NCBI RefSeq assembly: GCF_013085255.1
Contig: NZ_JABFCX010000003.1
Span: forward strand, 1,001,288-1,065,287
Direction: 5' to 3'
Source: Parvularcula mediterranea
GTDB taxonomy: Bacteria > Pseudomonadota > Alphaproteobacteria > Caulobacterales > Parvularculaceae
Length of the DNA stretch: 64,000 nt
Shown here: in pieces, positions 3,494 to 62,611 of the stretch
Numbering within the stretch: position 1 is the first letter of the stretch
Layout of the letters: every line of letters starts with the position of its first letter
Position numbers and translations under genes: made by a program
Notes under the pieces: model-generated
What the model saw: the letters and a program-made list of their open reading frames with translations, nothing else
Told to the model about the DNA's origin: nothing
Database searches by the model: none

Positions 3494-5074
3494 ATGGTCA
3501 AAGTCGTTATCTCCGACAAGCTGGGCGAGGATGCCGTCCGCATTCTCGAGGCCCGCAAGATCGACGTGGTCTTCAACCCGGATCTCGCCAAGGATCCCGA
3601 AGCTCTGCGTAAAGAGCTTGCCGATGCCGATGGACTGGCCATTCGGTCGGCCACCAAGGCCACGGCCGAGGTCATTGCCAATGCGCCGAAGCTGAAGGTC
3701 ATCGGCCGGGCAGGGATCGGTGTCGACAATATCGATATCGATGCCGCCACCGGTGCAGGAATCGCGGTGATGAACACACCGTTCGGTAATGCCGTGACGA
3801 CCGCAGAGCACGCTATCGCCATGATGTTTGCTGTCGCCCGGAAAATTCCGCAGGCGGACGCTTCGACCAAGCTGTCCAAGTGGGAGAAGTCGAAATTCAT
3901 GGGCCGCGAGCTCTTCGGCAAGACCCTCGGCCTCATCGGTGCGGGGAATATTGGCGGCATCGTCGCCAGTCGCGCCCAGGGCCTGCGCATGAAGGTCATC
4001 GCTTTCGATCCCTTCCTGTCGGAAGAAAAAGCGAAGGACATGGGTGTCGAGCTGGTCTCTCTCAATGAGCTGCTGACCCGAGCCAACTTCATCAGCCTGC
4101 ACACGCCCCTTAACGACAAGACGCGCAACATCATCAGCCGCGAAGCCCTCGAGGTCATTCGTCCGGGTGCGTTCATCGTGAACTGTGCCCGGGGCGGCCT
4201 GATCGATGAGGACGCGCTGGCCGAGGCTCTCGACGATGGCCGCGTCGCCGGTGCCGCGCTCGATGTGTTCCTCGAGGAACCTGCGAAAGAGCATCCGCTC
4301 TTCGATCGTGAGAACGTCGTGGTCACTCCGCACCTCGGTGCCTCGACCCAAGAAGCGCAGGAGAATGTCGCGGTTCAGATTGCCGAGCAGATCGCGGACT
4401 ACCTCCTGACGGGCGCGGTTCAGAACGCCCTGAACATGCCTTCGGTCACGGCCGAGGAGGCGCCGAAGCTGAAGCCCTTCATCAATCTCGGCGAAAAGGT
4501 CGGCTCGATGGCCGGCCAGCTCTCCGAGGGCGCGATCGAGGGGATCACGGTCCGCTTCGCTGGTGCCGTCAGTGCCCTGAAGATTGACCCCATCATCTCC
4601 GGTGTCGTCTCCGCAGCCCTCAAGACGCAGCTCGCGACGGTCAACGCTGTCAACGCGACGGCCCTTGCCAAGGATAGGGGCATTTCGATCACTGAGGAGA
4701 AAACTGAAACCTCTCCCAACTTCGGCAGCACGCTGAGCGTTCGTGTGACGACTTCCGAGGGTGAGTTCGCCGTGACCGGCGCTCTCTTCGGCGGTGAACC
4801 AAGGATCGTGCGTCTCGGCGGTGTTCGTCTGGAGGCAAGCGTCTCATCTTGCATGATCTACGTTGAAAACGAGGACAAGCCGGGCTTCATCGCTGGCCTT
4901 GGTGAAGTGCTCCGTGATGCAAACATCAACATCGCGACCTTCAACCTTGGCAGGCGGGAAGAGAGCGGCGACGCTGTCGCCCTCGTTGCTCTCGACTGCG
5001 GCAAGGATGAGCCGCCGCTCGAAGCCATCCGTGCACTGCCGCAAATCAAGAAGGCTTCAACCCTGAGGTTCTGA
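3494..5074 (+). CDS. serA: D-3-phosphoglycerate dehydrogenase
   Basis: First step of serine synthesis: NAD-dependent oxidation of 3-phosphoglycerate. 526 residues, the long bacterial form. It shows the substrate-domain motif GRAGIGVDNID (71-81), the Rossmann GAGNIG (149-154), the active-site region NCARGGLIDEDAL, and PHLGAST near the catalytic His. After about residue 320 come the intervening ASB domain and a C-terminal ACT domain (about 454-526) that in relatives binds serine for feedback control. Start ATG preceded by GAAGGATC. It lies between serC and serB in the same orientation. Confidence 0.97.
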   Translation: MVKVVISDKLGEDAVRILEARKIDVVFNPDLAKDPEALRKELADADGLAIRSATKATAEVIANAPKLKVIGRAGIGVDNIDIDAATGAGIAVMNTPFGNAVTTAEHAIAMMFAVARKIPQADASTKLSKWEKSKFMGRELFGKTLGLIGAGNIGGIVASRAQGLRMKVIAFDPFLSEEKAKDMGVELVSLNELLTRANFISLHTPLNDKTRNIISREALEVIRPGAFIVNCARGGLIDEDALAEALDDGRVAGAALDVFLEEPAKEHPLFDRENVVVTPHLGASTQEAQENVAVQIAEQIADYLLTGAVQNALNMPSVTAEEAPKLKPFINLGEKVGSMAGQLSEGAIEGITVRFAGAVSALKIDPIISGVVSAALKTQLATVNAVNATALAKDRGISITEEKTETSPNFGSTLSVRVTTSEGEFAVTGALFGGEPRIVRLGGVRLEASVSSCMIYVENEDKPGFIAGLGEVLRDANINIATFNLGRREESGDAVALVALDCGKDEPPLEAIRALPQIKKASTLRF

Positions 5075-22906: not shown

Positions 22907-23671
22907 TTATGAGAACGGCGCCAGGAGCCAGCTTGAAAAAGCGGCCCTGAAAGCGGCGAGGATCGGGCCGATCGCGAAGGCGAGGACATACATGCCCCCT
23001 AAGATCGAGATCGGCATGGCGACAAAGTAAAGCGGCAGCGACTGGAGCATGCGGTTGGTGAGACCGACGCCTAAGTTGAAGATGACGGACAGGAGGATGA
23101 AAGGCGCCGCCATCTGGATCCCGAGGGCGAAGACGCCCGCGAAGACCTTGACCAGCGCATCGGCCGCGTCCGCCATGTTCGGGAAGCCGCCGAGCGGGAT
23201 GACATTGTAGCTGAACGCCATCGCGTCGATCATCAGATAGTGGAGCCCACTGACGAAGGTGAAGAGGATCGCTCCGACCACGAACCACGCGCCGAGGATC
23301 GAGCTGGCTTCCATGAGTTGCGCGCCTGATGCGAAGATGTTCGAGAGGGAGGTGAGCTGGGAAGTCAGCTGGCCTGCGATCTGGGGCGCTGCGAGGAAGA
23401 GGCGCATGGCCGTGCCGAAGATGAGGCCTGAGGCGATCTCGGAGGTCATGGCCATGATGACGTCATCGAACCCGGCCATCTCGGGCAGGCGCCAGCGGAC
23501 GGCAACGGAAACGATGAGGGAGAAGCCGAAGGCGATGCCGAGGCGGACGTTCATCGGCACGTAGCTCTCGCCAACGCCAGGCATCAGCATACAGATCGTC
23601 CCGACCCGCGCGAAGGTGAGCAGGAGCACTGTCAATTGGTCTGCCGCACCGCCGAGCGGGATCTCAACCAT
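22907..23671 (-). CDS. fliR: Flagellar export gate protein FliR
   Basis: 254 residues, wholly membrane. Typical FliR features: FARVGTICMLMPGVGE in the first helices, GLIFGTAMRLFLAAPQIAGQL in the middle, and NLGVGLTNRMLQSLP in the cytoplasmic loop between the last helices. It forms the export gate with FliP and FliQ. Its start overlaps the end of the formyltransferase gene by 8 bp, tying the latter to flagellar expression. fliP is not in the window. Confidence 0.95.
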   Translation of the reverse strand: MVEIPLGGAADQLTVLLLTFARVGTICMLMPGVGESYVPMNVRLGIAFGFSLIVSVAVRWRLPEMAGFDDVIMAMTSEIASGLIFGTAMRLFLAAPQIAGQLTSQLTSLSNIFASGAQLMEASSILGAWFVVGAILFTFVSGLHYLMIDAMAFSYNVIPLGGFPNMADAADALVKVFAGVFALGIQMAAPFILLSVIFNLGVGLTNRMLQSLPLYFVAMPISILGGMYVLAFAIGPILAAFRAAFSSWLLAPFS

Positions 23672-24314
23672 GGCTGCTGGTCGCTCTCTTCTCCAAATCG
23701 AGGAGGGGGCCGCATGCCCTGATCAGCCGCGCCCTGTCCTGGGGAGTGAGATAATCAACCGCGGTCATCAAATTCTTAAGGCGCCTCTTCGTGCAGTGGT
23801 TGTCCGTCCACTGCTCCCGCATAGCGTGCGGCATGGGTCCGTCGGTCTTCACGCAATGGTGGATGACGTGATCGACCAAGGCGACTGATCGTGCGTAGAC
23901 CTCGTTTCCGTAAGAGACGATTTCCGCGTCGCTGGGCAGGGCGAAGCGGTCGACCATGATGATCGGGCCGTCATCGACCTTGGCGGTCATCTCATGGACC
24001 GTGACGCCGAACTCCTTCGCCTCGTTGAATATGGCGAAGCTGAGGCCGTGAGCGCCCGGGAACTCCGGCGGTCCGGGATGGACATTAATGGGGCGCGGGC
24101 GAAGCCTCTCCAGGATCGTTTTGGGAACGATCTGGTCGGTGAGGAAGCTGATGACCCGGGTCCTGTGCCCGCCTGAGCGCGTGACGAAGTCGAGCGCCGC
24201 CACCGTCGAGCACCAGACGGTTTCGAGGTTCGGATCGAGCCTTGCGACATGTCCTCGGAAGGCCTCTCCCTCGGCTTCGCCGCAGAGGAAGATCAGCCTG
24301 CGTTCGAAGCTCAT
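23664..24314 (-). CDS. Formyltransferase-fold protein within the flagellar export operon
   Basis: 216 residues, shorter than methionyl-tRNA formyltransferase (about 310) and lacking its C-terminal tRNA-binding domain. The formyl-transfer triad is intact: N77 and H79 in RPINVHPGPPEFPGAHG and D114/D115 in VDDGPII, each in family order. It overlaps flhA by 4 bp (ATGA) and fliR by 8 bp, so it is made with the export apparatus. Acceptor unknown: sugar-nucleotide N-formylation, as in surface-glycan enzymes, or modification of a flagellar component are both possible. It is not the housekeeping fmt. Confidence 0.8.
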   Translation of the reverse strand: MSFERRLIFLCGEAEGEAFRGHVARLDPNLETVWCSTVAALDFVTRSGGHRTRVISFLTDQIVPKTILERLRPRPINVHPGPPEFPGAHGLSFAIFNEAKEFGVTVHEMTAKVDDGPIIMVDRFALPSDAEIVSYGNEVYARSVALVDHVIHHCVKTDGPMPHAMREQWTDNHCTKRRLKNLMTAVDYLTPQDRARLIRACGPLLDLEKRATSSHG

Positions 24315-26595: not shown

Positions 26596-28404
26596 ATGCG
26601 CAACATCATCACTGCGGCTCTGGCCGTCCTGTTGCTGACAGCGGGGTCAGCGCTGGGGCAGGAGCTCAAGTCTTTCGGATACGGAACGATGTGGAACTCG
26701 CCATTGACGGCGTCCCGCCCCACCGTTGTCGTGTTCATCAACACCATCGAGGCCCAGGCTCCGCGTGTTACCGCCCAGACCAGGGTCTTCACCTCGATCC
26801 CGGCTATGATTTGGGGGCCGGGAGCGAACAACGCGAACGCTTATTACAACCATGCCTCGGCAGGGAGGTTCCAGTGGACGAGGGCGCAGAACGGCGTCTA
26901 CGGACCCTACCAGTCCCAGAACGGGCACTGTCTCAGGCGCGCGAATGGAGCGACCTTCAGCGCGGGACGGACGATCCTCCGGCATGAAGCCGTCCGCTTC
27001 CTGATGTCCGACCCCAACATGAACATGCGGCAGTTCGATACGAACGGAAACGGCATCGTCAGCCACCGCGAACTTGCGATCCATATCGTCTATAACTGCC
27101 CGCCCAGCACGTCCGCCAACCCCCACACTCCGACCTCAGGGGAAGTGCGGGAGGTCGATGTCACGGTCAGGGGGCTGAGGTTCGCGGGAAAGGTCTCGAG
27201 CAGCAAAACGACGGTGTCCATCCCGACCTTGCACCATGAGCTGGCGCATCTCCTGGGCACCTATGATCTTTATACCGACCGGATGGATTGCGATTGCCGC
27301 AGCGTCTCGCTGATGCATGTCAGGAACCACCAGATGCTGAGCGATCTGGACGGTCCTCACAAATTCGCCCTCGGATGGACGAGGACTTCAGTCATCGACA
27401 TTGCAAAGCTCAGCCGCAGGTCGATCAACGAAGCGCTTGGCCGCAATGTCCACTACCTGATCTACGACTCTCGCCGATCGCAGAAGGAATATTTCTATAC
27501 GGAGTTCCGCCGGTCGAACGATCCCTTTGAAGCAGGGCTGTTCCAGAGCGGGCTCGCGGTCTGGCGGGTCACGCAAAGGGCGGACGGCAAGATTGACCGG
27601 ATTCGTCTCCTGAGCCCGAATATCCTCGCTCTATCAAGGGTCTCGCGCGCTGCGGATCTTGGGAACAGGGTCGACAGGCTCCTCTTTGAGGAGGCGGACG
27701 GAAGCTTCACGCCCGTGTGGGAGAACGGCGAACCCGCAGACTTCGCCTTTCGCGTGACTGACCCCGCAGCGAACGGTGCACGCCGGTACTTCGCCGAACG
27801 CGACATCTTCACGGCCGCAGCAACGCTACCGTCAACGAAGAAGGGCTATTTCTTCCAGCAAGAGGATTACTTCAGGTTCGACTATGCGCGTGACCGGTTC
27901 GACCGGAAGCGACGCGCAGGGGAAGACGGGAAGAACTGGTCCGCATACGCACAGCATGCAGATGGCGCTTTCGCGCGTGCCGCTAACGGAGAAACCCAGG
28001 TCTACTTCCTCCGCGGCTCGCGCTATTATCGCTATAGCTTGGACCGTGATCAGGTGGATCAGATCGGCAATATCTCCACCCTGTTCAGAGGTGTGCCGAA
28101 CAATATCGATGCAGCGATCCACCACCCAACCAACGGGAAGACGTACTTCTTCAAGGGCAATCAGTACTATCGATATGATTGGGATGACCGCCGGGTCGAT
28201 GCCACGCGGACGATCTCCGATATCGGCTGGAAGGGCGTTCCGTCAGACCTGAACGCGGCGCTCATGCATCCCAACGGCAAGGCTTACTTCTTCAAGCTGG
28301 ACCGCGGGCGAATGGCCTATCATCGCTATGACTTTGGCCAGCAGGGGGTCGACCGGACCGGCATCATGGGCACCGACGGCTGGCTCGGAAAGAGCAGCCT
28401 CTAG
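26596..28404 (+). CDS. Secreted M6-like metalloprotease with EF-hand loop and hemopexin repeats
   Basis: 602 residues. Signal peptide to about residue 21 (AGSALGQ). An EF-hand loop DTNGNGIVSHRE (148-159) has ligands at positions 1, 3, 5 and 12. The zinc site is HELAHLLGTYDLY (HExxH at 214-218), with SLMHVRNHQ and FALGW after it, as in immune-inhibitor-A-like M6 peptidases. Four hemopexin-like repeats follow (about 417-460, 468-508, 515-555, 562-600), each with a YFFxxxxYYRY core. The order protease then hemopexin mirrors animal matrix metalloproteinases. Likely degrades extracellular protein. It is divergent from flhA. Confidence 0.8.
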   Translation: MRNIITAALAVLLLTAGSALGQELKSFGYGTMWNSPLTASRPTVVVFINTIEAQAPRVTAQTRVFTSIPAMIWGPGANNANAYYNHASAGRFQWTRAQNGVYGPYQSQNGHCLRRANGATFSAGRTILRHEAVRFLMSDPNMNMRQFDTNGNGIVSHRELAIHIVYNCPPSTSANPHTPTSGEVREVDVTVRGLRFAGKVSSSKTTVSIPTLHHELAHLLGTYDLYTDRMDCDCRSVSLMHVRNHQMLSDLDGPHKFALGWTRTSVIDIAKLSRRSINEALGRNVHYLIYDSRRSQKEYFYTEFRRSNDPFEAGLFQSGLAVWRVTQRADGKIDRIRLLSPNILALSRVSRAADLGNRVDRLLFEEADGSFTPVWENGEPADFAFRVTDPAANGARRYFAERDIFTAAATLPSTKKGYFFQQEDYFRFDYARDRFDRKRRAGEDGKNWSAYAQHADGAFARAANGETQVYFLRGSRYYRYSLDRDQVDQIGNISTLFRGVPNNIDAAIHHPTNGKTYFFKGNQYYRYDWDDRRVDATRTISDIGWKGVPSDLNAALMHPNGKAYFFKLDRGRMAYHRYDFGQQGVDRTGIMGTDGWLGKSSL

Positions 28405-30943: not shown

Positions 30944-33508
30944 TCAGCCCTTGAGAATCGTTCCCAAGGCGTGACTCAGGCTTCCATCATCCACAGGCTT
31001 GGTCAGGATCGGGATGTCCCGCAGCTCCGGAGGCACATCGATGCGTGAGCCGTAGCCGGTGACGAAGATGAAGGGGATCTGCAGCTCGATCAGTCGCTCG
31101 GCGATTTCGAAGGAGACCGTGCCGCGCAGGTTCATGTCGAGCACGGCGAAGTCGAACTTGTGCATCTTCAGCTCACGGAGAGCCGTCTCCACGGTCGCGG
31201 CCGTCTCGATATGCTCTGCGCCAAGGCGGGAGATGCTGTCGACCATATCCATGGCGAGGACCAGATTGTCCTCCACGAGAAGCGCGGTCTGGTCCGACGC
31301 AACGCGCTTGATCTCACCGACCTTGCCCGTGAGCTCGACCTTGGTGTCTTCCTCGAGGTCAACAAGGCAGTCCGTGGGGAGAGTAAATCGGAACTCGAGG
31401 CCCTGGGGTTTGTATTCAAGATCAACGGTGCCGTCAAACTCGTAAGGGATGGCGCGTTCAATCAGTGTGCGCCCGAAGCCGTGACGCTTTGGCGGCTCAA
31501 CCGGAGGCCCGCCGACTTCGCGCCAGCGGAAGTTGATGCCTCTTTCCTCGAGCTCCCAGCGGACCTGAATGATGCCGTCGCCGTTGGAGAGGGCGCCATA
31601 CTTCGCAGCATTGGTGACAATCTCGTGGAAGACGAGGGCGATCATCGGTGCGACGTCCGGGCGAAGACCGACGACGGGTCCCGACATCAGGACCTGGGAA
31701 AGGTCCGGCTTGGTGTAGGGAACAAGTTCCGTATCGAGAATGCCCTTGAGGCCGACGCCTTGCTTCGATCCGGAGACCGCGAGGTCGTGCGCAGCGGCGA
31801 GGGCTGCGATGCGTTGCTCGAGCGCAAGAGCATAGCTTTCCAGCGACGCCGAGCTCTCCTTGGCTTGCCGCGAAAGCGACCGGATCAGTGCAAGGATGTT
31901 CTTTACACGGTGGTTGAGCTCGGCGATCATCAGGTCCTGCTGACGCTGATGAGTCACAAGGTCCTTGTGACGCGAGAGCTGCTGGCGTTCGCCCTTCGCC
32001 GTGATCTGCGTGAGCATGATCTGGATTTCGCGGGCACTCGTCAGATCGAAGAGCTGCCACGGTTCGGACCGACCGCACTGCTCGTCCTGATACGCATCAA
32101 AGGAACCACGGGGCGAGATTCGCGGGCCGAAGGGGCTGTCCTCGACCTTTTTCTCGGGCTTTCCGCCCCATAGGACTTTCTTGATTTTCTCATCACGGAA
32201 GAACATGAGCTGGAGTGGATAGGCGGCCGTTGCCCGCACGATCAGACATCCGGCAGTGTCGCCGAGGTCGTGACCGTTGTGCCAGCCATCAGCCTGCAGA
32301 GAGTCTGTCCCCTTGAGCAAATCTTCGTCATGGGGGTTAAAACCACCGACTGCGCGGATGGCTTCTGAACTCGGTACAGAAGCATCTGTCTGCAGCTTGT
32401 CGTCACGCAAGATGGCCATACCATCACAATTAATAAGCTTACGGAAGACTTTTGAAATGCTCGGAAAGGCCTTCAGAAGGTCCGTCGTCGCATCGGTCTC
32501 GGCGATGATCTGCTGGCGGGCGGCGGCGGCTCTTGCGCGCGCCGCGACTTGCTCGCTTTCTGTCTTCTCCTTCACGAGAAGCGACATGATCTGTCCGAAG
32601 AGCTCGCATGCAATCCTGACATCCGAGGTGATGACCCGCGGGCTCATATGGTGGCAGGCGAACATGCCCCAGAGCTTGCCGTCGACAACAAGGCCAATCG
32701 TCAGCGTACCGCCGACACCCATGTTCTTGAGGTACTGAACGTGGATGGGTGAGACGCCCCTTGTGTGTGCAAGCGACATGTCGAGCGGATCGAGATCGGC
32801 GGTCCGGGCCAGCACGGTGACGGGCTCCTGATAGACGTCGCTGGTGATCCGGACGGGGTTCTTGACCTGAAGTGCCCTTGCCTGCGCAGGAACATCCCAT
32901 GCGGGATAGCGCAGTCCGAGATAGCTCGGGACATCAGGCGCGCGCGCTTCAGCGACGACCTCGCCACTGCCATCATCATCATAGCGATAGGCCTTCACCC
33001 GATCGTAGCCCGAGAGGGACCGCAGTCCGACAACGGCGGCTTTGAGCATGCGGTCGACGGTCTGCTCGGCGCCGGCACGCGCGATGAACAGGCGGGCCTG
33101 TTCGAGGGCGGACCGGTTGGTGTGAAGCGGTTGAGCTTCGCCGCGCTCGAACTCAACAATGGCGCGTTCGCCGGGGGACCGATGGGCGTAGACCTCGATC
33201 TTGTTGCCGCGGAGCTCATACTGACCGACCCGCTCGCGCTGGGCGGCGGATGTGGAGAAGGAGAGGACGTTGCGAATGTCGTGGAGGACATCGTCGGGAA
33301 GAACTGACGACCATTCGTTGCCGAGCACTGACTTGGCCTCGATGCCAAGGAACTCGGCCAGGTTCTCACTGGCGAAGTCGACGGTATCGAGGGAAAGTGG
33401 TCCTGCGATCAGGGCCGCGAAGGGCTGGACCGTTCCTGGGATGTGGATCGGTTCCTTGTCGCAATTCTCAACCGACAGCTCTTCGACTGTCATTTCACCG
33501 TCTGCCAT
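30944..33508 (-). CDS. bphP: Bacteriophytochrome HWE histidine kinase with C-terminal receiver
   Basis: 854 residues. PAS-GAF-PHY photosensor: chromophore Cys at 16 (VENCDKEPIHIPGTVQP), GAF motif RYPAWDVPAQAR (D205 kept; the usual Ser is Trp), SPIHVQYLKNMGV, FACHH, and the PHY tongue PRGSF (466-470). Then an HWE kinase with phospho-His 533 in ELNHRVKN and FRWREVGG, the WxE motif. A receiver (about 735-850) ends the protein, with VLDMNLRG as the Asp site. It binds biliverdin and responds to red/far-red light. Downstream of fliQ but with a 116-bp gap, so probably separate. Confidence 0.93.
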   Translation of the reverse strand: MADGEMTVEELSVENCDKEPIHIPGTVQPFAALIAGPLSLDTVDFASENLAEFLGIEAKSVLGNEWSSVLPDDVLHDIRNVLSFSTSAAQRERVGQYELRGNKIEVYAHRSPGERAIVEFERGEAQPLHTNRSALEQARLFIARAGAEQTVDRMLKAAVVGLRSLSGYDRVKAYRYDDDGSGEVVAEARAPDVPSYLGLRYPAWDVPAQARALQVKNPVRITSDVYQEPVTVLARTADLDPLDMSLAHTRGVSPIHVQYLKNMGVGGTLTIGLVVDGKLWGMFACHHMSPRVITSDVRIACELFGQIMSLLVKEKTESEQVAARARAAAARQQIIAETDATTDLLKAFPSISKVFRKLINCDGMAILRDDKLQTDASVPSSEAIRAVGGFNPHDEDLLKGTDSLQADGWHNGHDLGDTAGCLIVRATAAYPLQLMFFRDEKIKKVLWGGKPEKKVEDSPFGPRISPRGSFDAYQDEQCGRSEPWQLFDLTSAREIQIMLTQITAKGERQQLSRHKDLVTHQRQQDLMIAELNHRVKNILALIRSLSRQAKESSASLESYALALEQRIAALAAAHDLAVSGSKQGVGLKGILDTELVPYTKPDLSQVLMSGPVVGLRPDVAPMIALVFHEIVTNAAKYGALSNGDGIIQVRWELEERGINFRWREVGGPPVEPPKRHGFGRTLIERAIPYEFDGTVDLEYKPQGLEFRFTLPTDCLVDLEEDTKVELTGKVGEIKRVASDQTALLVEDNLVLAMDMVDSISRLGAEHIETAATVETALRELKMHKFDFAVLDMNLRGTVSFEIAERLIELQIPFIFVTGYGSRIDVPPELRDIPILTKPVDDGSLSHALGTILKG

Positions 33509-35063: not shown

Positions 35064-35112
35064 GGTGGGAGTTCTCCTCACGGGGTTCGTCCCTCAGATG
35101 ACCAGCACGAGC

Positions 35113-35127
35113 TTAAACCTGCATAAA
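35113..35127. promoter_or_regulatory. TTAA-N7-TAAA flagellar box between flgB and fliI
   Basis: TTAAACCTGCATAAA. It is 50 bp from the flgB start and 46 bp from the fliI start, so it could serve both. Near-consensus for a CtrA-type site (TTAA-N7-TTAA), and shares ACC-G with the sites at 50683 and 54209. Confidence 0.6.
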
Positions 35128-35172
35128 AGATTAGGGGGTCAGAAAGGCTCTGCTTTCGAGAAGGAGAGCCTG

Positions 35173-43585: not shown

Positions 43586-43911
43586 TCTGGGACCTCGGAA
43601 GTCTTGTTGATTTCGGCCATCACCATATCGGCGATGCCGATGCCGCCGCGCTGGGCAAACGAATCAGCGATGTGCTGGACGAGAAAGCCCTGCCACATCT
43701 TCTCTCCCTGGCCACCGCCAAAAAGACCATCGGTCTTCATGCCGCTGAACATGGAGGAGACGAACTGGTTGAGAAAAACAGCTTCGAACCCTTCGGCGGC
43801 CTTGCGGGCCTCGTCGGGTTTCGCCGCTGCTAGCTTACGCGCTGCGCCGGCGATATCGAGCTCAGGCTTGATGTCTGCACCAGCGGGGAGCGCGGAGATT
43901 TCAGAGATCAC
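43582..43911 (-). CDS. flgJ: Rod-binding protein (FlgJ N-terminal domain only)
   Basis: 109 residues from GTG. EGFEAVFLNQFVSSMFSGM and GGGQGEKMWQGFLVQHIADS are the FlgJ rod-capping signature. The muramidase domain of enterobacterial FlgJ is absent, as usual in Alphaproteobacteria; a separate wall hydrolase must serve. Overlaps both flgI and the flgN-like gene by 4 bp. Confidence 0.9.
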   Translation of the reverse strand: MISEISALPAGADIKPELDIAGAARKLAAAKPDEARKAAEGFEAVFLNQFVSSMFSGMKTDGLFGGGQGEKMWQGFLVQHIADSFAQRGGIGIADMVMAEINKTSEVPE

Positions 43912-45095
43912 TGGACGACAAGCTCCGCCTGAAGAGCACCTGACGATTTGATCGTCTGGAGGATCGAGATCATGTCCCGGGGCGTCACGCCCATGGCGTT
44001 GAGGCCATCGACGAGTTCTTGCAGGGTGACGTTCGGTTCGATGACGCGGAAGCCATTGCCAAGGTCTTCTTCCACTTGAATATCCGTCCGCGGAACGACC
44101 ACCGTCTCACCGACCCGGCTGAAGGGCGAGGGCTGGGACGGGATTGGACGCTCGGAGATGCGGATCGTGATATTGCCGTGGGCAATCGCGACCGGCGAGA
44201 CACGGACATTGTTGCCGATGACGATCGTGCCCGAGCTTTCGTCGACAACGACACGGGCGACTTCGTCCGTCTCAATATCAACGCTTTCGAGATCTGCGAG
44301 CATGGTCGTCACTTCGCCGCGATAGTCCGAAGGCACCTGAACTTCGACCGTAGCCAGATCAATCGCGCGGGCGAAACGGCCTGACAGGCGGTTGTCGATG
44401 GCGCTGGCGATGCGGTTGGCTGTCGTGAAGTCGGGGTTCTTGAGGATCAGGCGGACGGTGTCGAGGTCATTGATCGGGAACGCCAATTCACGTTCGACCG
44501 TGGCGCCCTCAGGGACGCGGCCCTGGGTTGGGACGCCGCGGCTGATCGAGCCTGCTGCGCCCTGTGCCTGGAAGCCGCCAATGATGAGCTGGCCTTGCGC
44601 GACCGCATAAACATTGCCGTCGGCTGCCGTCAGCGGGGTCACGAGAAGCGTGCCGCCTTGAAGGCTGCGGGCATCGCCAAGGGCGGAGACGGTAACGTCA
44701 ATCTTGTCGCCCGCGCGAGAGAAGCCGGGGAGGGCTGCGGTCACCATGACAGCGGCAACGTTCCGTGTCTGGAGGATCTGGTCGGCATCGAGGGCCACGC
44801 CGAAGCGCTCCAACATCGAGCGAACCGACTGCTCTGTAAAAAGAGCGTTCTGGGCACGGTCACCGGAACCTGGAAGGCCGACCACGAGGCCATAACCGAT
44901 GAGCTGGTTCTCGCGCACCCCTTCAATCTTGGTGATATCCTTGAGCCGTGACGACGCTGCGGCCGGCTGGGCCAGGAGCGACGTGATGCAAAGGAAGATG
45001 GCCACGGCGGCAAGCGCGTGGCTGAGGGCGGTTCTCCGCCGACGGAGGAGTGTCTCCGCCGCACTGACATGCAAGGTCATCATGCCGCCGATCAT
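43908..45095 (-). CDS. flgI: Flagellar P-ring protein FlgI
   Basis: 395 residues; starts at 45095, 45083 or 45080 are all possible. Signal peptide ends AAASSRLKDI. GVRENQLIGYGLVVGLPGSGD is the standard block (parts ENQLIGYGLVVGL and GSGDRAQN). PGTLLVTPLT-type and YAVAQGQLIIGG strands follow; C-terminus TPRDMISILQTIKSSGALQAELV. Periplasmic ring around the rod. Divergent from the CtrA-like regulator, with a TTAA box between. Confidence 0.96.
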   Translation of the reverse strand: MIGGMMTLHVSAAETLLRRRRTALSHALAAVAIFLCITSLLAQPAAASSRLKDITKIEGVRENQLIGYGLVVGLPGSGDRAQNALFTEQSVRSMLERFGVALDADQILQTRNVAAVMVTAALPGFSRAGDKIDVTVSALGDARSLQGGTLLVTPLTAADGNVYAVAQGQLIIGGFQAQGAAGSISRGVPTQGRVPEGATVERELAFPINDLDTVRLILKNPDFTTANRIASAIDNRLSGRFARAIDLATVEVQVPSDYRGEVTTMLADLESVDIETDEVARVVVDESSGTIVIGNNVRVSPVAIAHGNITIRISERPIPSQPSPFSRVGETVVVPRTDIQVEEDLGNGFRVIEPNVTLQELVDGLNAMGVTPRDMISILQTIKSSGALQAELVVQ

Positions 45096-45106
45096 ACCCA
45101 GCGAGA

Positions 45107-45121
45107 TAAAACGGGCTTTAA
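45107..45121. promoter_or_regulatory. TAAA-N7-TTAA box between flgI and the CtrA-like gene
   Basis: TAAAACGGGCTTTAA, only 12 bp before the flgI start and about 190 bp from the regulator start. It is the reverse-orientation form of the shared flagellar box. Confidence 0.5.
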
Positions 45122-45310
45122 GGATCCCAAATCTTCAGACTCTGTTAGTCTTCCCTAACCGTTTCATTTCCAAAGAATTTCTGAATCCCTTGGTGACTCT
45201 TTTTCTACTTTCTCCCGTCATGGTGAACGTCGATCCCGTACCGGCAGAAGCCAAGGGCGAGGATCGCCGCCCCAGGGCAAAACGGGCGGACAACATAGTG
45301 GTGAGAGAGC

Positions 45311-46063
45311 ATGCGGATTATCCTGTTGGAACCCAACCCGATTATCGCCGAGGCACTGGTCTCGCGATGCAAGTCTTCCAAGATCGATGTGGACGTCCTG
45401 TCTTCGGCTGAAGAGCTCGAAGTCGTGGCCGGGAAGGATCTTACTCATTATGGCGGCATCCTTGTCGGCTCGGTCGAGGACCCTTGCGAGCTGATCGAAG
45501 AGCTGCACAAGGATGCAGGCGGTACGCCGATCATTCTTCTCTCGGACGTCAAGAACCCGCAGCTCGCGATCAGAGCGTTCAGCGCGGGTGCCGACGACTT
45601 CGTCGTCAAACCTTTCAATGCCGAAGAGCTGAAAGCCCGGATCCTGGCGCGTGGCCGCCGGACGCTGGGCAAGGCGTCGACCGCCTTCAAGCTCGGCAAG
45701 CTCACCATTTTCTATGATGGCCGTGACCCCGAAGTCGCTGGCCAGCGTATCAAGCTCTCCCACCGGGAGCATGCGATCTTCACCTACCTCGCCAAAAATG
45801 TTGGCCGGGTTGTCTCGAAGGAAAGCGTCTACTCGGCCGTTTACGGATCGATGGACTGCGAGCCTTTCGACAAGGTGATCGACGTTTACATCTGCAAGCT
45901 GCGCAAGAAGCTCTCGGACGCGACCGAAGGTCAGCAGTTCATCGAGACGGTCTACTGCCGCGGCTACAAGATGGACAAGCCGGAGAACACCGTCGTCCAA
46001 CGCCTCGGCGGAGGTGGCCGCAAAGCCCTGCCGAAGCCGGAGAAGAAAAGCTCCGCAGCTTAA
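45311..46063 (+). CDS. CtrA/FtcR-like response regulator with degenerate receiver
   Basis: 250 residues. The DNA-binding domain (about 140-220) is CtrA-like: LSHREHAIFTYLAKNVGRVVSKE, YGSMDCEPFDKVIDVYICKLRKKL and ETVYCRGYKM, in parts. The receiver is not standard: the acidic pocket is EPN where CtrA has EDD, and the strand that should end in the phospho-Asp reads GGILVGS, with Gly53 in its place; only Lys100 (VVKPF) is kept. So it probably works without phosphorylation, as FtcR/Rem-type flagellar regulators do. Divergent from flgI; a perfect terminator follows. Confidence 0.85.
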   Translation: MRIILLEPNPIIAEALVSRCKSSKIDVDVLSSAEELEVVAGKDLTHYGGILVGSVEDPCELIEELHKDAGGTPIILLSDVKNPQLAIRAFSAGADDFVVKPFNAEELKARILARGRRTLGKASTAFKLGKLTIFYDGRDPEVAGQRIKLSHREHAIFTYLAKNVGRVVSKESVYSAVYGSMDCEPFDKVIDVYICKLRKKLSDATEGQQFIETVYCRGYKMDKPENTVVQRLGGGGRKALPKPEKKSSAA

Positions 46064-46533: not shown

Positions 46534-47661
46534 CTACCGGACGTAGTTGAAGAGCCTGAGCTGCAGAACTCTTCCGGTCACGGCGTAACTCGCTTCCAGT
46601 TGGTTTTCGATGTCGAGGAGACGGGTTGTCACCTCGGCACGGTCGACGCCTTCGAGGGCGACGATCTGGTTGTTGAGAAGGGCGTTCTGGGCACGGACGG
46701 CTTCTTCGGCAGCGTCCACGACGTTGAACCTGAGGCCGAGGTCAGCACGGCTGCGCTGGATGGCGGCGAGGCCCGAGGTGATACGGTCCAGCGCACCTTG
46801 GCGGCCGAAATCGTCGCCAGTCATCAGCTGGCGGTAGGCATCGTCATCGTCGATTGACTCAAGGTCCACCGAAGCGAGGATATAGGCGCCCTGGAACACA
46901 TCGCGTAGACCATTGATCAGCTCGTCATTCAGCTGGGTCTCGATCGTGTTGTTCGGCAGACGGATTTCCAGGAGGCTGCCGTCGATCTCACCATTATAGA
47001 TGGTGTTCTCGAAGCTGTAGGCTTGGGCCGCCGGGTCAGCACTCGCAGCGTTGGTGCCGTAGAAGACATCTTCGAACCGCTGGAGAAGCTCATCTGCTTC
47101 AGCAACTGTGGTCACGGTCGTGAGGTCGGTCGCGGCGAAGCCTGCAACGCCGGTCGTGCCGGTGGTGATGTTGTTCGCGATATCAAGCGGGGTCACACCG
47201 CCGGCGCCATTCTTTTCGATCGGCTGGAGGGCCTGCTGGTCAACGCGGGCACCGCCGAAGAGATAGCGGCCGCCGACCTGCACGTTCAGTGCTGTGACGA
47301 TCCGGTCGAGAAGGCTCTCGGCGACAAGCTTTACCGAACCTGCCGAGTCCAGCGGTTCTGCTGCGTTGAGGGCCGCGACCTTCGTCAGGTCTTCAACCGC
47401 TGCTTCGGCCTCGGCAAGGGCGCCGTCCATCAGGTCGGAGCGCTGCTTGAAGATGCTGATCGAGCGCAGGTAGGCGTTGTTCTCAGTGAACTGATTGCGC
47501 ACGCCCTGCAGGTTGATGAGTTCGGAGCCGATGGTCTTGGCCACGTCTTCCTTCTTTCCGGTCGCAAGTTCGTTGGTCGCGGTGGCGATTTCGCCCTCGA
47601 GACGGCGGAGTTGCGCATTACGGAGCGCGGTCTGGCCGAAGGTGGAGATCGGTTTCATCAT
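46534..47661 (-). CDS. flgL: Flagellar hook-associated protein 3 (FlgL)
   Basis: 375 residues. Flagellin-like N-terminus TALRNAQLRRLEGEIATATNELATGKKED, in parts ALRNAQLRRLEGEI and NELATGKKEDV, and a C-terminal ENQLEASYAVTGRVLQLRLFNYV. It links hook to filament above FlgK. 11 bp after flgK in a flgE-flgK-flgL run. Ends 64 bp before a terminator. Confidence 0.93.
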   Translation of the reverse strand: MMKPISTFGQTALRNAQLRRLEGEIATATNELATGKKEDVAKTIGSELINLQGVRNQFTENNAYLRSISIFKQRSDLMDGALAEAEAAVEDLTKVAALNAAEPLDSAGSVKLVAESLLDRIVTALNVQVGGRYLFGGARVDQQALQPIEKNGAGGVTPLDIANNITTGTTGVAGFAATDLTTVTTVAEADELLQRFEDVFYGTNAASADPAAQAYSFENTIYNGEIDGSLLEIRLPNNTIETQLNDELINGLRDVFQGAYILASVDLESIDDDDAYRQLMTGDDFGRQGALDRITSGLAAIQRSRADLGLRFNVVDAAEEAVRAQNALLNNQIVALEGVDRAEVTTRLLDIENQLEASYAVTGRVLQLRLFNYVR

Positions 47662-47672
47662 CAGGGTCCGCC

Positions 47673-49283
47673 TTATGCAATCCGTGCCAGGAGTTCGTCG
47701 AACATCCGGGCAATGATGTTGATGACCTGCGCGTTCGCAGCGTAGGCCTGTTCAAGTTCAAGGAGCTTCTCGCTCTCTTCGTCGATGTTCACGCCGTTCT
47801 CGTTGTAGCGGCGGTTCTCGAGCGTATCGAAGATCGTCCGTGTCCGGTCTGCTAGGTTCTCAAGGTTCGCGCGGTCCGTCTGGATGCCGGAGGCGAGGTC
47901 CGCTGCGAAGTTCTGGAGCGTGACGTTGGACGTCAGGCCGCCATTCGGGACGAGGGGACGGGTCGAGCTCAGGCCATCGAGGAAGTCAGCAAGCTGATCC
48001 TTGAAGCCTGCAAGCTGGGCCGAGGCGGGGTTGGTGTAGGCTGCCGTCGCCGTGGCAACGCCTGCGCCGCCGGAGAAATCGACCTCTGCCGCGTCATCGC
48101 GGAAGGTAGCCACGACGCCGGTCCTGATCCGCGACAGGTCGCCGCCTGCTTCGGGATCGACGAGGTCATTGACCGCGATCCGCCCTGCAAGGCCGATAAT
48201 GTCGACATCGGTCGCCGCCGGATCAACACCTGCGCCAAGGTCGGTGAAGAGGCCTGGCACGTCGACCACTGCTTCTGGTCCGCCCGTGAAGGCGCCGTAG
48301 CGGAGGGCCGCGACCTGCGCGTCGGCCTGCTGGAAGAGAACGATCGTCTCTTTGGCGAGGGCATCGATTTGCGACTGGTACTGAATAAGGTCGACGTCAC
48401 GGGCGAGGAAGTTGCCTGCGATGGCGCCCGAGCGAAGAGCCTGCGGCCCGCCAAGGGGGCCTGGCTCAATGTTGAAGCCGTCGACCTGAAGGCCGGAAAG
48501 GCCCGACGGAATGCTGTCGATCCGCGTCGAGGCATCGATGACCGTGGTGCGGGTGAAGGTCAGCTCGCGCGGTTCACCATCAAGGAGGGTCACGCCTTCG
48601 GTCGTGGTGATGACAACTTCGCCCTGGTCGCGGGTGAAGGTCCGGATACCGATCTGTTCCGCGACAACGTCGATGAGGCGATCGCGCTCGTCGAGAATAC
48701 CGGAAATGTCGATCGAAGGATCAGCCATGCCCTCGGCAACCTTGCGGTTGAGGTCAGCTATGCCTTCAAGGGCCGTGTTGACGGAGTTGACGCCTTCTTC
48801 GATGCGGCGGTCAGCAGCCTCACGGCCGGTTTGAACAGCGCCTTGCGCCGTACCAAGACGTTCGGTCAGCTCGCGCGCTGCGAAAAAGACCTGACGCTGA
48901 AGATCCGTACGCTCCGGAGCATCGTAAAGCTCCTGGAACGCCGTCTCCAGCTTCGTCACTGCGAAAGCGACAGAGCGCTCGTCTTCTGGGTTGCCCGAGG
49001 CGGTTGCCAGCGGGCTGAGGGCAGCTGCGCGGACATCGAAGGTGCCGAGCTTTGCAGCTTCGAGACGAACATCCCGGAGGAGGATCGAGTCGACAGGGCT
49101 CCTGACCACATCGGCCGACACGCCGGTACCGATACCGGCGGTGTTGTTGGCCGAGATGCGTGCTTCCTTCGCAACATAGCCAGGCGTCCGCGCATTGGCG
49201 ATGTTGTCCGAAGCGCCCGCGACCTGCCTCTGGGTCGAGGCGAGGCCGGACTTGGCGTTGAAGAGTGCTGTGGTCAGTGACAT
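47673..49283 (-). CDS. flgK: Flagellar hook-associated protein 1 (FlgK)
   Basis: 536 residues. N-terminus AKSGLASTQRQVAGASDNIANARTPGYV is the rod/hook motif; the C-terminus SEKLLELEQAYAANAQVINI is standard. Central region (about 90-430) is variable, with RERDRLIDVVAEQIG-type helix at ILDERDRLIDVVAEQIG. First junction protein on the hook. 25 bp after flgE. Confidence 0.95.
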   Translation of the reverse strand: MSLTTALFNAKSGLASTQRQVAGASDNIANARTPGYVAKEARISANNTAGIGTGVSADVVRSPVDSILLRDVRLEAAKLGTFDVRAAALSPLATASGNPEDERSVAFAVTKLETAFQELYDAPERTDLQRQVFFAARELTERLGTAQGAVQTGREAADRRIEEGVNSVNTALEGIADLNRKVAEGMADPSIDISGILDERDRLIDVVAEQIGIRTFTRDQGEVVITTTEGVTLLDGEPRELTFTRTTVIDASTRIDSIPSGLSGLQVDGFNIEPGPLGGPQALRSGAIAGNFLARDVDLIQYQSQIDALAKETIVLFQQADAQVAALRYGAFTGGPEAVVDVPGLFTDLGAGVDPAATDVDIIGLAGRIAVNDLVDPEAGGDLSRIRTGVVATFRDDAAEVDFSGGAGVATATAAYTNPASAQLAGFKDQLADFLDGLSSTRPLVPNGGLTSNVTLQNFAADLASGIQTDRANLENLADRTRTIFDTLENRRYNENGVNIDEESEKLLELEQAYAANAQVINIIARMFDELLARIA

Positions 49284-49308: not shown

Positions 49309-50616
49309 TTATCGGCCGAGACGGGTGACTTCTTCGAGCATCTCGTCAGCAGTCTGAACGATGGTTGCGTTCGAAGAGTAGGCCCGCTGGGTTTCGATCA
49401 GCGTGGTGAGTTCTTCGGCCACATCAACGTTGGCGCCTTCAAGCGCGCCCGAGGAGATGGTGCCGGTGTTGTTGGTCCCGGCGGTGGCCACGCGAAGGTC
49501 GCCTGAGTCAGCCGAGAGGGTGAAGGCGTTGCCGTCGACCGGGTCGAGGCCTTCAGGGTTGATCACGTCAACCAGCGGGATCTGGTAGACAGGGCGGATC
49601 TCGCCATTGTCGAAGATCGCAACGAGCGTGCCGTCTTCCTGAATGTCGATCTGCTGCAGCTCACCAAGAGCCGAGCCGTCAACGTTGGTCTGCGGGGTGA
49701 AGTCGCCGCCGAACTGGGTGACGCCGTTGAGCTGGTTCTCCGCACCGAAGCCAAGCTCGATGGTCTGGCCAGCTGCGCCGGGGAGGACGATCTCGAAGGT
49801 GCCGTCAGCTTCGCTATAGTTCTGGACCGTGTAGCCAGCTGCTGCTGCAACAGGAGCGGCTGCCGGATAGTCCGGGGTTCCCGCAACTGCGCCGGCGCCA
49901 CCGCCGGTGAAGTCGATGCCTGCGAGGGTCGTGACGAGGGTGCCGCCGACTGGGCCGTCATAGATCTCGACGTCCCAGACGTTCGAGCCTGCGCCGCCAT
50001 TCGGGACCCAGTTGAAGGTCAGGGTCTGGGTTGCGCCAAATTCGTCAAAGTACTGAACACCGGCCTGGAAGGGGCCTGCGCTGCCAGCCGGCACGTTGCC
50101 ATTGTAGAGGACCTGCGTCGTCGGACGAGCTGCACCCTGGATCGCGTTGATGTTGACGGTTTCCATCGAGTCGAAGGTGGTCAGGCTCGGTGCGCCGTTG
50201 GTGTAAGTGCCATCGGGGTTCAGAGGGAAGCCCTGAAGGAAGAAGCCGCCTGAGTTCTGGAGGTTGCCGAACTGGTCAGGACGGAAGCTGCCCGCCCGGG
50301 TGAGGGCGGCGCCGGAGCCGTCGACCTGGTTGGCGACAGCGAAGAAGCCGCGGCCTGCGATGGCGAGGTCGGTGACGGAGTCCGAAGCGAGGATGGTGCC
50401 GGCTTTCGACACTTCCGTACGGATCTGGGTGGTCACACCGCCCGCCGTGTACGAACTGTCAGAGCCCGTATTGATGACGAGGGTCGAAAACTGAGCCGTC
50501 GAGCGCTTGTAGCCGACCGTCGACGAGTTCGCGATGTTATCTGAAATCGTCGCGAGTTTCGTTGCTTGGGCCCTCAGGCCATTGACGCCGGTTTGAAGCG
50601 CACTGCCAATCGACAT
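49309..50616 (-). CDS. flgE: Flagellar hook protein FlgE
   Basis: 435 residues. GVNGLRAQATKLATISDNIANSSTVGYK at the N-terminus and VAEELTTLIETQRAYSSNATIV at the C-terminus define it. The FlgE middle with GRGFFAV and RAGSFRPDQFGNL is present; the D2 part is rich in Gly/Ala. It forms the hook, capped by FlgD. A TTAA-N7-TAAA site is 67-81 bp upstream, so flgE-flgK-flgL probably has its own promoter rather than motB read-through. Confidence 0.96.
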   Translation of the reverse strand: MSIGSALQTGVNGLRAQATKLATISDNIANSSTVGYKRSTAQFSTLVINTGSDSSYTAGGVTTQIRTEVSKAGTILASDSVTDLAIAGRGFFAVANQVDGSGAALTRAGSFRPDQFGNLQNSGGFFLQGFPLNPDGTYTNGAPSLTTFDSMETVNINAIQGAARPTTQVLYNGNVPAGSAGPFQAGVQYFDEFGATQTLTFNWVPNGGAGSNVWDVEIYDGPVGGTLVTTLAGIDFTGGGAGAVAGTPDYPAAAPVAAAAGYTVQNYSEADGTFEIVLPGAAGQTIELGFGAENQLNGVTQFGGDFTPQTNVDGSALGELQQIDIQEDGTLVAIFDNGEIRPVYQIPLVDVINPEGLDPVDGNAFTLSADSGDLRVATAGTNNTGTISSGALEGANVDVAEELTTLIETQRAYSSNATIVQTADEMLEEVTRLGR

Positions 50617-50682
50617 TGATCCGTCCTCGGTAAACTTGCCGGAGCTTTATGCTCCCATCAGTTCTGACCTAGGACAGCCCGT

Positions 50683-50697
50683 TTAAACCGGGATAAA
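50683..50697. promoter_or_regulatory. TTAA-N7-TAAA flagellar box upstream of flgE
   Basis: TTAAACCGGGATAAA on the plus strand; read toward flgE it is TTTATCCCGGTTTAA. It lies between motB (3' end 50732) and flgE. Shares TTAAACC-G with the 35113 and 54209 sites. Confidence 0.6.
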
Positions 50698-50731
50698 ATC
50701 GAGAATTGTGCCGATCTGGGACAGCAGCTTT

Positions 50732-54189: not shown

Positions 54190-54223
54190 TTAAACTGGCC
54201 CGGCTAGTTTAAACCTGCGTTTC
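54190..54223. promoter_or_regulatory. Two TTTAAAC flagellar boxes between motA operon and flgF
   Basis: TTTAAAC at 54189-54195 and again at 54208-54214, 19 bp apart. The second continues as TTAAACCTGCG, nearly identical to the 35113 site, with TTTC in place of the right TAAA. Sits between divergent flagellar operons and could serve both. Confidence 0.6.
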
Positions 54224-54295
54224 AGGCCGAACCCGCCGTTTTCCTTCGCTTGCGAGGGGCGTGAGGGGGCGAGGCAATCAAGAGGATAAAGACCC

Positions 54296-62566: not shown

Positions 62567-62596
62567 CTGAGGTACAGGGACCTCTTTGACGTCAGT

Positions 62597-62611
62597 TTAA
62601 AACGCTGAACC
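62597..62611. promoter_or_regulatory. TTTAAA flagellar box between fliL and fliF
   Basis: TTTAAAACGCTG, TTAA at 62597-62600, in the 71-bp gap between divergent fliL and fliF. Its right half (AACC) does not match TAAA. Weaker member of the shared box set. Confidence 0.4.

Follow-up and report, generated by a model that had tools for sequence, protein, structure and literature searches.

The gene at 45311-46063 (+) of the window, which is the whole 64-kb stretch of Parvularcula mediterranea DNA that was analysed, encodes an OmpR-family regulator whose receiver has lost the phospho-acceptor aspartate. Most probably, the protein activates, independently of phosphorylation, the second flagellar cluster in which it resides, a cluster of fla2 type that is probably mobile. 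By the full-length tree, it belongs to a group that contains Rem and the regulators of plasmid-borne clusters and adjoins CtrA, and does not represent a mutated CtrA. Aspartate-less flagellar regulators are already known.

Gene and domain architecture

The ORF covers exactly 45311-46063 (+), starts with ATG and encodes 250 AA. Pfam recognised Response_reg (E 1.3e-10, residues 56-111) and Trans_reg_C (E 2.3e-19), which is the architecture of a receiver with an OmpR/PhoB-type winged helix. A phmmer search matched PDB 2hqr (E 2.8e-17), which we take to be HP1043 (HsrA) of Helicobacter. The following features were assigned:

45311..46063, + strand: aspartate-less OmpR-family regulator (Rem/fla2 type), 250 AA (ORF, Pfam, alignment, tree)
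45311..45664, + strand: pseudo-receiver domain, residues 1-118 (Pfam; within-genus dN/dS)
45686..45982, + strand: winged-helix DNA-binding domain, residues 126-224 (Pfam, CtrA comparison)
45716..45733, + strand: DGRDPE (36-sequence alignment)
45863..45913, + strand: stretch with the recognition helix (13/17 identical to CtrA)

Past the winged helix, a C-terminal tail (45983-46030, ENTVVQRLGGGGRKAL) is identical in the four genus orthologs and partly kept in the homolog from another genus of the family (genome G147).

Flagellar cluster and second flagellar system

The original prediction that the regulator is encoded beside flgI was correct, as the divergent neighbour matches Pfam FlgI with E 1.2e-138. 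The regulator is placed between this gene and flgL-flgK-flgE:

43908..45095, - strand: flgI, divergent neighbour (Pfam)
46534..47661, - strand: flgL-like gene with Flagellin_C (Pfam)
47673..49283, - strand: flgK (Pfam)
49309..50616, - strand: flgE (Pfam)

The cluster also has flagellin, flaF, flbT, DUF1217, motA, motB, fliM, fliL, fliF, flgB and fliI. The fla2-type order flgI/regulator/flgL-flgK-flgE, with flaF, flbT and DUF1217 as in Roseivivax, is present in the window.

A second flgI exists in the genome. When the window proteins were searched with tblastn against 530-620 kb of another contig (C1), 18 of the 20 rows mapped to 559-591 kb (26-52% identity) and the remaining two were a flagellin at 532 kb and CtrA at 615 kb. 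Because a separate flagellar cluster thus exists on C1, near ctrA, the window holds a second flagellar system. Two flgI genes were found in three of the four genus genomes with the regulator (the fourth being a draft with 89% completeness) and in three of the six without it; the presence of a second flgI has no simple tie to the regulator.

Distribution of the regulator

With an E-value of 1e-38, the regulator was found in 4/10 genus genomes and 5/299 order genomes, its own included. The genus orthologs, among them those of Parvularcula lutaonensis KCTC 22245 and P. maris BGMRC 0090, are joined by the protein of G147, which is 61% identical and has the same gene order. Such a scattered distribution is in keeping with an accessory module, possibly one acquired by transfer. 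The synteny flgI/regulator/flgL-flgK-flgE recurs in P. lutaonensis, P. maris, a MAG and G147, and beyond the family in Roseivivax marinus, Sulfitobacter mediterraneus and Indioceanicola. A single scan of genome contigs gave three Parvularculaceae loci and one Corynebacterium locus, the latter a 30% partial match. The class-wide search at E 1e-56, in which seven candidates scored in most genomes shown, matched the own genome and no other among 385; the family is rare in the sample, or the threshold was strict. As another approach, a search at the DNA level for DGRDPE plus V/I/M, any residue and Gly was tried and rejected: it hit 6/385 genomes, and the five frames outside the window did not read as response regulators.

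For plasmids, the best 60 of at least 5000 records were considered and six relatives were used. Among the matches listed, relatives scoring above CtrA were found in Azospirillum (42-49% identity), Indioceanicola (46%), Sulfitobacter (40-47%) and Roseivivax (40%). The six relatives used share 39-48% identity with the regulator, have a degenerate active site as well and occupy the same or a similar position. Roseivivax marinus and Sulfitobacter mediterraneus again carry the gene between flgI and a flagellin-like gene, with flgK and a hook gene coming next, while the record of S. pontiacus stops short of the flgI side. Azospirillum B510 has its relative beside flagellin within a plasmid flagellar cluster. 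The Indioceanicola record is unannotated at the locus and tblastn gave the same order there. The relative in A. brasilense Sp7 (L050:15001-15780) has no flagellar genes nearby.

Clusters of the fla2 type are reported to be horizontally mobile, with 21 of 43 located on plasmids, Sulfitobacter included (PMC12363192). A Roseivivax marinus strain is named in one description of fla2, in which a response regulator gene of the cluster is called cheY (PMC12843797); this gene is probably the counterpart of the regulator studied here.

Comparison with CtrA and Rem

The regulator shares 44% identity (43/98) with CtrA in the DNA-binding half and 29% (34/116) in the receiver, and its stretch with the recognition helix is identical at 13 of 17 positions. 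The predicted closeness of the DNA-binding half to CtrA is therefore borne out. The true CtrA, for which the original prediction proposed a search elsewhere in the genome, was found intact at G000:C1:615414-616088, on a different contig from the window and 24 kb from the separate flagellar cluster. The regulator scored 154.6 bits against a cut-off of 350 with the NCBIfam CtrA equivalog model, whose name, RespRegCtrARhodob, suggests Rhodobacterales CtrA.

For the trees, nine of the CtrA sequences found, four of the 14 Rem records and the six plasmid relatives were included. The receiver-less proteins L009, L010 and L011 among the 11 winged-helix proteins of the genome were left out, as was L065 of S. 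meliloti. Support values (SH-aLRT/UFBoot) were taken from the unrooted newick. The regulators of Parvularculaceae, those of fla2 clusters and Rem were separated from CtrA and the other OmpR proteins with 100/99 for the full length and 99.5/100 for the receiver. A wider group of the family, Rem and CtrA against the rest received 98.3/99 for the full length and 96.8/100 for the DNA-binding half and is absent from the receiver tree, where CtrA does not adjoin the family. The tree of the DNA-binding half lacks the grouping with Rem (89.9/55 against it); there, CtrA falls inside with weak support and Rem outside. The branch of Rem is very long. A place of the regulator beside Rem is suggested with good support by two trees, full-length and receiver, and is not recovered from the DNA-binding half alone. 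The description "CtrA-like" holds for the DNA-binding half and does not extend to the whole protein.

Rem is a rhizobial flagellar activator of Sinorhizobium meliloti and Agrobacterium; that of S. meliloti was recognised by place and sequence beside flgE in CP090106.1. It shares with the regulator a receiver joined to an OmpR-type winged helix, the location beside flgE-flgK and the DGRDP motif, which occurs in 11/11 family members, 3/4 Rem sequences and 0/9 CtrA sequences of the 36-sequence alignment. By eye, the predicted third strand of Rem is also followed by a Gly, which is offset in the automatic alignment of the 36 sequences, with a Glu falling in the Asp column. Identity is 20% in the receiver and 38% in the DNA-binding part. 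As only 8 of 17 residues of the recognition stretch are identical, Rem likely has a different DNA target. Rem is described as aspartate-less and active without phosphorylation (PMC9812332), and MirA is reported to bind and inhibit it (PMC12632262).

Promoter motif and candidate regulon

The CtrA box is TTAA-N7-TTAA. No exact copy of it was found in the 64-kb window, where seven copies with one mismatch occur against 1.56 expected (0/100 shuffles reach seven), one of the seven lying outside the flagellar cluster. Genome-wide, the exact pattern is present in ten places (reversed control pattern: four).

A motif was searched de novo by expectation-maximisation in 47 promoter regions of the Parvularculaceae genomes G005, G003 and G147, with the genome of the window held out. 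The best 17-mer was TTTAAACcGGCaTtAAA, which has the spacing of TTAA-N7-TTAA; a width of 15 gave a similar, weaker consensus. The matrix was symmetrised and 7.5 bits was chosen by us as the threshold. Five sites in the held-out window reached at least 7.5 bits, and all five lie in flagellar promoters:

35112..35128, no strand assigned: operator-like site, divergent flgB/fliI promoter, score 8.9
45106..45122, no strand assigned: operator-like site, flgI/regulator promoter region, closer to flgI, score 9.9
50682..50698, no strand assigned: operator-like site upstream of flgE, score 17.5
54208..54224, no strand assigned: operator-like site, divergent orf(52482)/flgF promoter, score 9.5
62585..62601, no strand assigned: operator-like site, divergent fliL/fliF promoter, score 15.8

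The site at 45106 is located about 190 bp from the start of the regulator. At 7 bits, seven sites were found against 0.5 expected, and at 6 bits nine against 2.0; the expectation of a first-order Markov model for the window was about 0.5 at 7 as well as at 8 bits. Only 1 of 200 column-permuted matrices reached five intergenic sites in the window. The flagellar cluster on C1 has two matches in 90 kb. Of the "TTAA boxes" of the original prediction, the exact box is thus missing from the window, while the one-mismatch copies and the de novo motif in five flagellar promoters are present.

Matches at the same five promoters were found in all four Parvularculaceae clusters, three of which are the training set; unlabelled matches in the training genomes amount to two rows in G005, one in G003 and six in G147. 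Because the promoters of the window are orthologous to the training set and had been read by eye before, the tests in Azospirillum and Indioceanicola are the only nearly independent ones. In Azospirillum B510, three sites were found, all intergenic (fliL/fliF, regulator/flagellin and fliI/flgB). None of 200 permuted matrices reached three intergenic sites there; for sites of any kind, the numbers were 2/200 at 7.5 bits and 0/200 at 9. Indioceanicola has five sites upstream of flgB/fliI, flaF, flagellin, flgE and motA (gene ends from tblastn), a number reached by 0/200 permuted matrices (Markov mean 0.23). Long open frames run across its sites at 3650 and 19951, so the starts of fliI and flgE are uncertain there. 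Upstream of the A. brasilense Sp7 copy, one site was found at a distance of about 150 bp; as it lies inside a small annotated ORF, it was scored as coding in the test. In the Rhodobacterales clusters L053 and L055, the regulator is present and no site reached 7.5 bits; S. pontiacus has two weak sites, and 20/200 permuted matrices do as well. That the promoters of the cluster in the window share a motif with CtrA spacing is supported.

Outside the cluster, no claim on the regulon is made, since YTTAAACNNGNNTNAAA with one mismatch occurs in six places genome-wide, three of them in the cluster, against four for the reversed control.

In the promoters of L053, L055 and L052, TATTCTTG/CAAGAATA-like words were seen by eye to be repeated in place of the TTTAAA motif. 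A gene for a sigma-70 family factor is located near the Rhodobacterales fla2 clusters.

CtrA might also recognise the same boxes. We regard it as unlikely that CtrA, acting via CckA-ChpT, drives the cluster at the TTAA-N7-TTAA-like boxes and that the aspartate-less protein is a mere modulator or competitor. The genome does encode an intact CtrA with a closely similar recognition stretch, one exact TTAA-N7-TTAA (10.9 with the same matrix) is present at the flgE promoter of the primary cluster on C1, and flagella are under CtrA control in other Alphaproteobacteria (PMC12363192). However, none of the ten exact CtrA-type boxes of the genome falls in the window. The motif furthermore recurs alongside the regulator in the clusters of Azospirillum B510 and Indioceanicola, and upstream of the A. 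brasilense copy it is found away from flagellar genes.

Related regulators and direction of control

Going by the descriptions in the cited papers, several regulators resemble the one in the window. FtcR of Brucella and ActR of Azorhizobium are OmpR-type proteins encoded in or near flagellar genes and needed for flagella, and regulators of this type are reported in Rhizobiales and Rhodobacterales (PMC8639532). LafR, OmpR-like as well, acts as master regulator of the lateral flagella of Bradyrhizobium, which are a second flagellar system (PMC10888616). HP1043 is likewise an orphan OmpR-type protein with a degenerate receiver; it works without phosphorylation (PMC8345958). It differs in being an essential regulator, and it is not known to us as the resident of a flagellar cluster. 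Best supported is a mechanism resembling that of Rem and LafR, in which a phosphorylation-independent regulator residing in the cluster would activate the second flagellar system.

A repressor or silencer, which holds the second system off until a signal removes it, is a quite improbable alternative to the activator. The sign of regulation is unreadable from sequence, and some second flagella are silent under usual laboratory conditions, for instance fla2 of Cereibacter sphaeroides (PMC11999139); yet ActR, FtcR, Rem and LafR are all described as needed for flagella or for flagellar gene expression.

Receiver active site and selection

The active site was compared with CtrA of the same genome and with the orthologs at the following positions:

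45329..45337, + strand: E7-P8-N9, replacing the acidic pocket (ortholog alignment, CtrA comparison)
45467..45469, + strand: codon of Gly53, position of the phospho-acceptor Asp (36-sequence alignment)
45608..45610, + strand: Lys100, the conserved receiver lysine, retained (CtrA comparison)

Residues 7-9 read EPN in the regulator and EDD in CtrA, which confirms the predicted replacement of the acidic pocket. In the 36-sequence alignment, Gly53 is aligned with Asp51 of CtrA, in agreement with the predicted exchange of the acceptor. Two smaller alignments open a gap at this point and align Ser54 to Asp51 instead; as both Gly53 and Ser54 are non-acidic, the loss of the acceptor stands under either alignment. 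CtrA thus keeps EDD and Asp51, both gone from the regulator, which retains Ser78 in addition to Lys100. The three genus orthologs (84-91% identity) retain the degenerate site, and E7-P8-N9, G53 and S54 are invariant across all four, which excludes a sequencing error; Ser78 and Lys100 do not vary among them either. These alignments support the conclusion that phosphorylation of the receiver by the usual route would be impossible. The regulator belongs to the aspartate-less or pseudo-receiver class, as its receiver fold is recognised by Pfam and phosphotransfer residues are missing.

Across the 11 family members of the 36-sequence alignment, the Asp column holds Gly in ten and Ala in one, and the acidic pair is incomplete or absent in every member. 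The receiver Lys is gone in three, namely those of Rhodobacterales. In five of the 11 (B510, Indioceanicola, both Sulfitobacter and Roseivivax), an Asp or Glu follows directly after the Gly/Ala, and the smaller alignment places this acid under CtrA Asp51; loss of the acceptor is therefore less certain in these relatives than in Parvularcula. That a kinase still switches the receiver via another residue or the neighbouring acid is very improbable: the retained Lys100 and Ser78 and the acid of the five members would allow for it, whereas Parvularcula has the non-acidic Ser54 at that place and no acidic pair for Mg2+.

Within the genus, dN/dS was 0.12-0.17 for the receiver and 0.026-0.043 for the DNA-binding half (one of six pairs was saturated), so that the value of the receiver is about 3 to 5.5 times higher. 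A receiver with 0.12-0.17 is maintained and does not drift freely, as expected of a domain that still dimerises or binds a partner. All 11 family members share G93, A94, D95, D96, E106 and R110, which presumably belong to the dimer face; this is consistent with dimerisation, although the same residues are common among ordinary OmpR receivers. The reading as a decaying gene, in which the receiver degenerates by drift in a protein without a role, can be dismissed almost entirely, since against the faster receiver stand these low values in both halves, the retention of the ORF in five Parvularculaceae genomes and the recurrence of the same position in flagellar clusters of other orders.

The structure prediction proposed for the receiver was run with AlphaFold2 on four close sequences and gave a poor model (mean pLDDT 49.5). 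Only the order of secondary structures was used, and weakly; it places, at low confidence, a strand at 48-52 ahead of Gly53.

Proposed mechanism

For the regulator as phosphorylation-independent activator, the following course is proposed. The receiver would dimerise without phosphate via the alpha4-beta5-alpha5 face, and the protein would bind TTTAAACcGGCaTtAAA-type boxes before fliL/fliF, flgB/fliI, flgE, flgF and flgI. Once bound, it may activate the second flagellar cluster. In place of a kinase, its abundance or a partner protein, comparable to MirA for Rem, would then set its output. The protein may be "constitutive" and, as the original prediction put it, a candidate "master regulator" of the cluster.

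In a broader reading, which we offer tentatively and hold to be possible rather than likely, a CtrA-family DNA-binding head, freed from the cell-cycle phosphorelay, travels together with matched operators inside a flagellar cluster that moves horizontally. The second flagellum would then reach a new host as a self-wired regulon, which host CtrA may take over or from which it may be displaced; the boxes have CtrA spacing and thus offer a possible entry point for host CtrA. In the literature search, which covered its sources in part, neither the function of the fla2-type regulator nor a CtrA-type operator set moving with a mobile second flagellum was described. With its predicted regulon and with CtrA for comparison in one cell, the family forms a natural series in which phosphorylation-free control of CtrA-type promoters is directly testable. 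It also suggests how a transferable second flagellum keeps its coordination in a new host.

Other genes of the cluster

Inside the flagellar cluster, the product of 30944-33508 (-) was recognised by eye as a histidine kinase that resembles bacteriophytochromes and ends in a receiver. Partial matches of 29-32% were all that the searched stretches of G003 and G005 contained, which is unlike a conserved partner. Between the presumed fliR and flhA lies a gene for a formyltransferase-like protein (23664-24314, -; Pfam Formyl_trans_N), which is retained with 75% in G003 and 72% in G005. Beside the presumed flhA, a protein with hemopexin-like repeats (by eye), presumably secreted, is encoded at 26596-28404 (+). 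Where the window has a single flagellin-like ORF, three lie next to each other in P. lutaonensis (L043:3140-7631).
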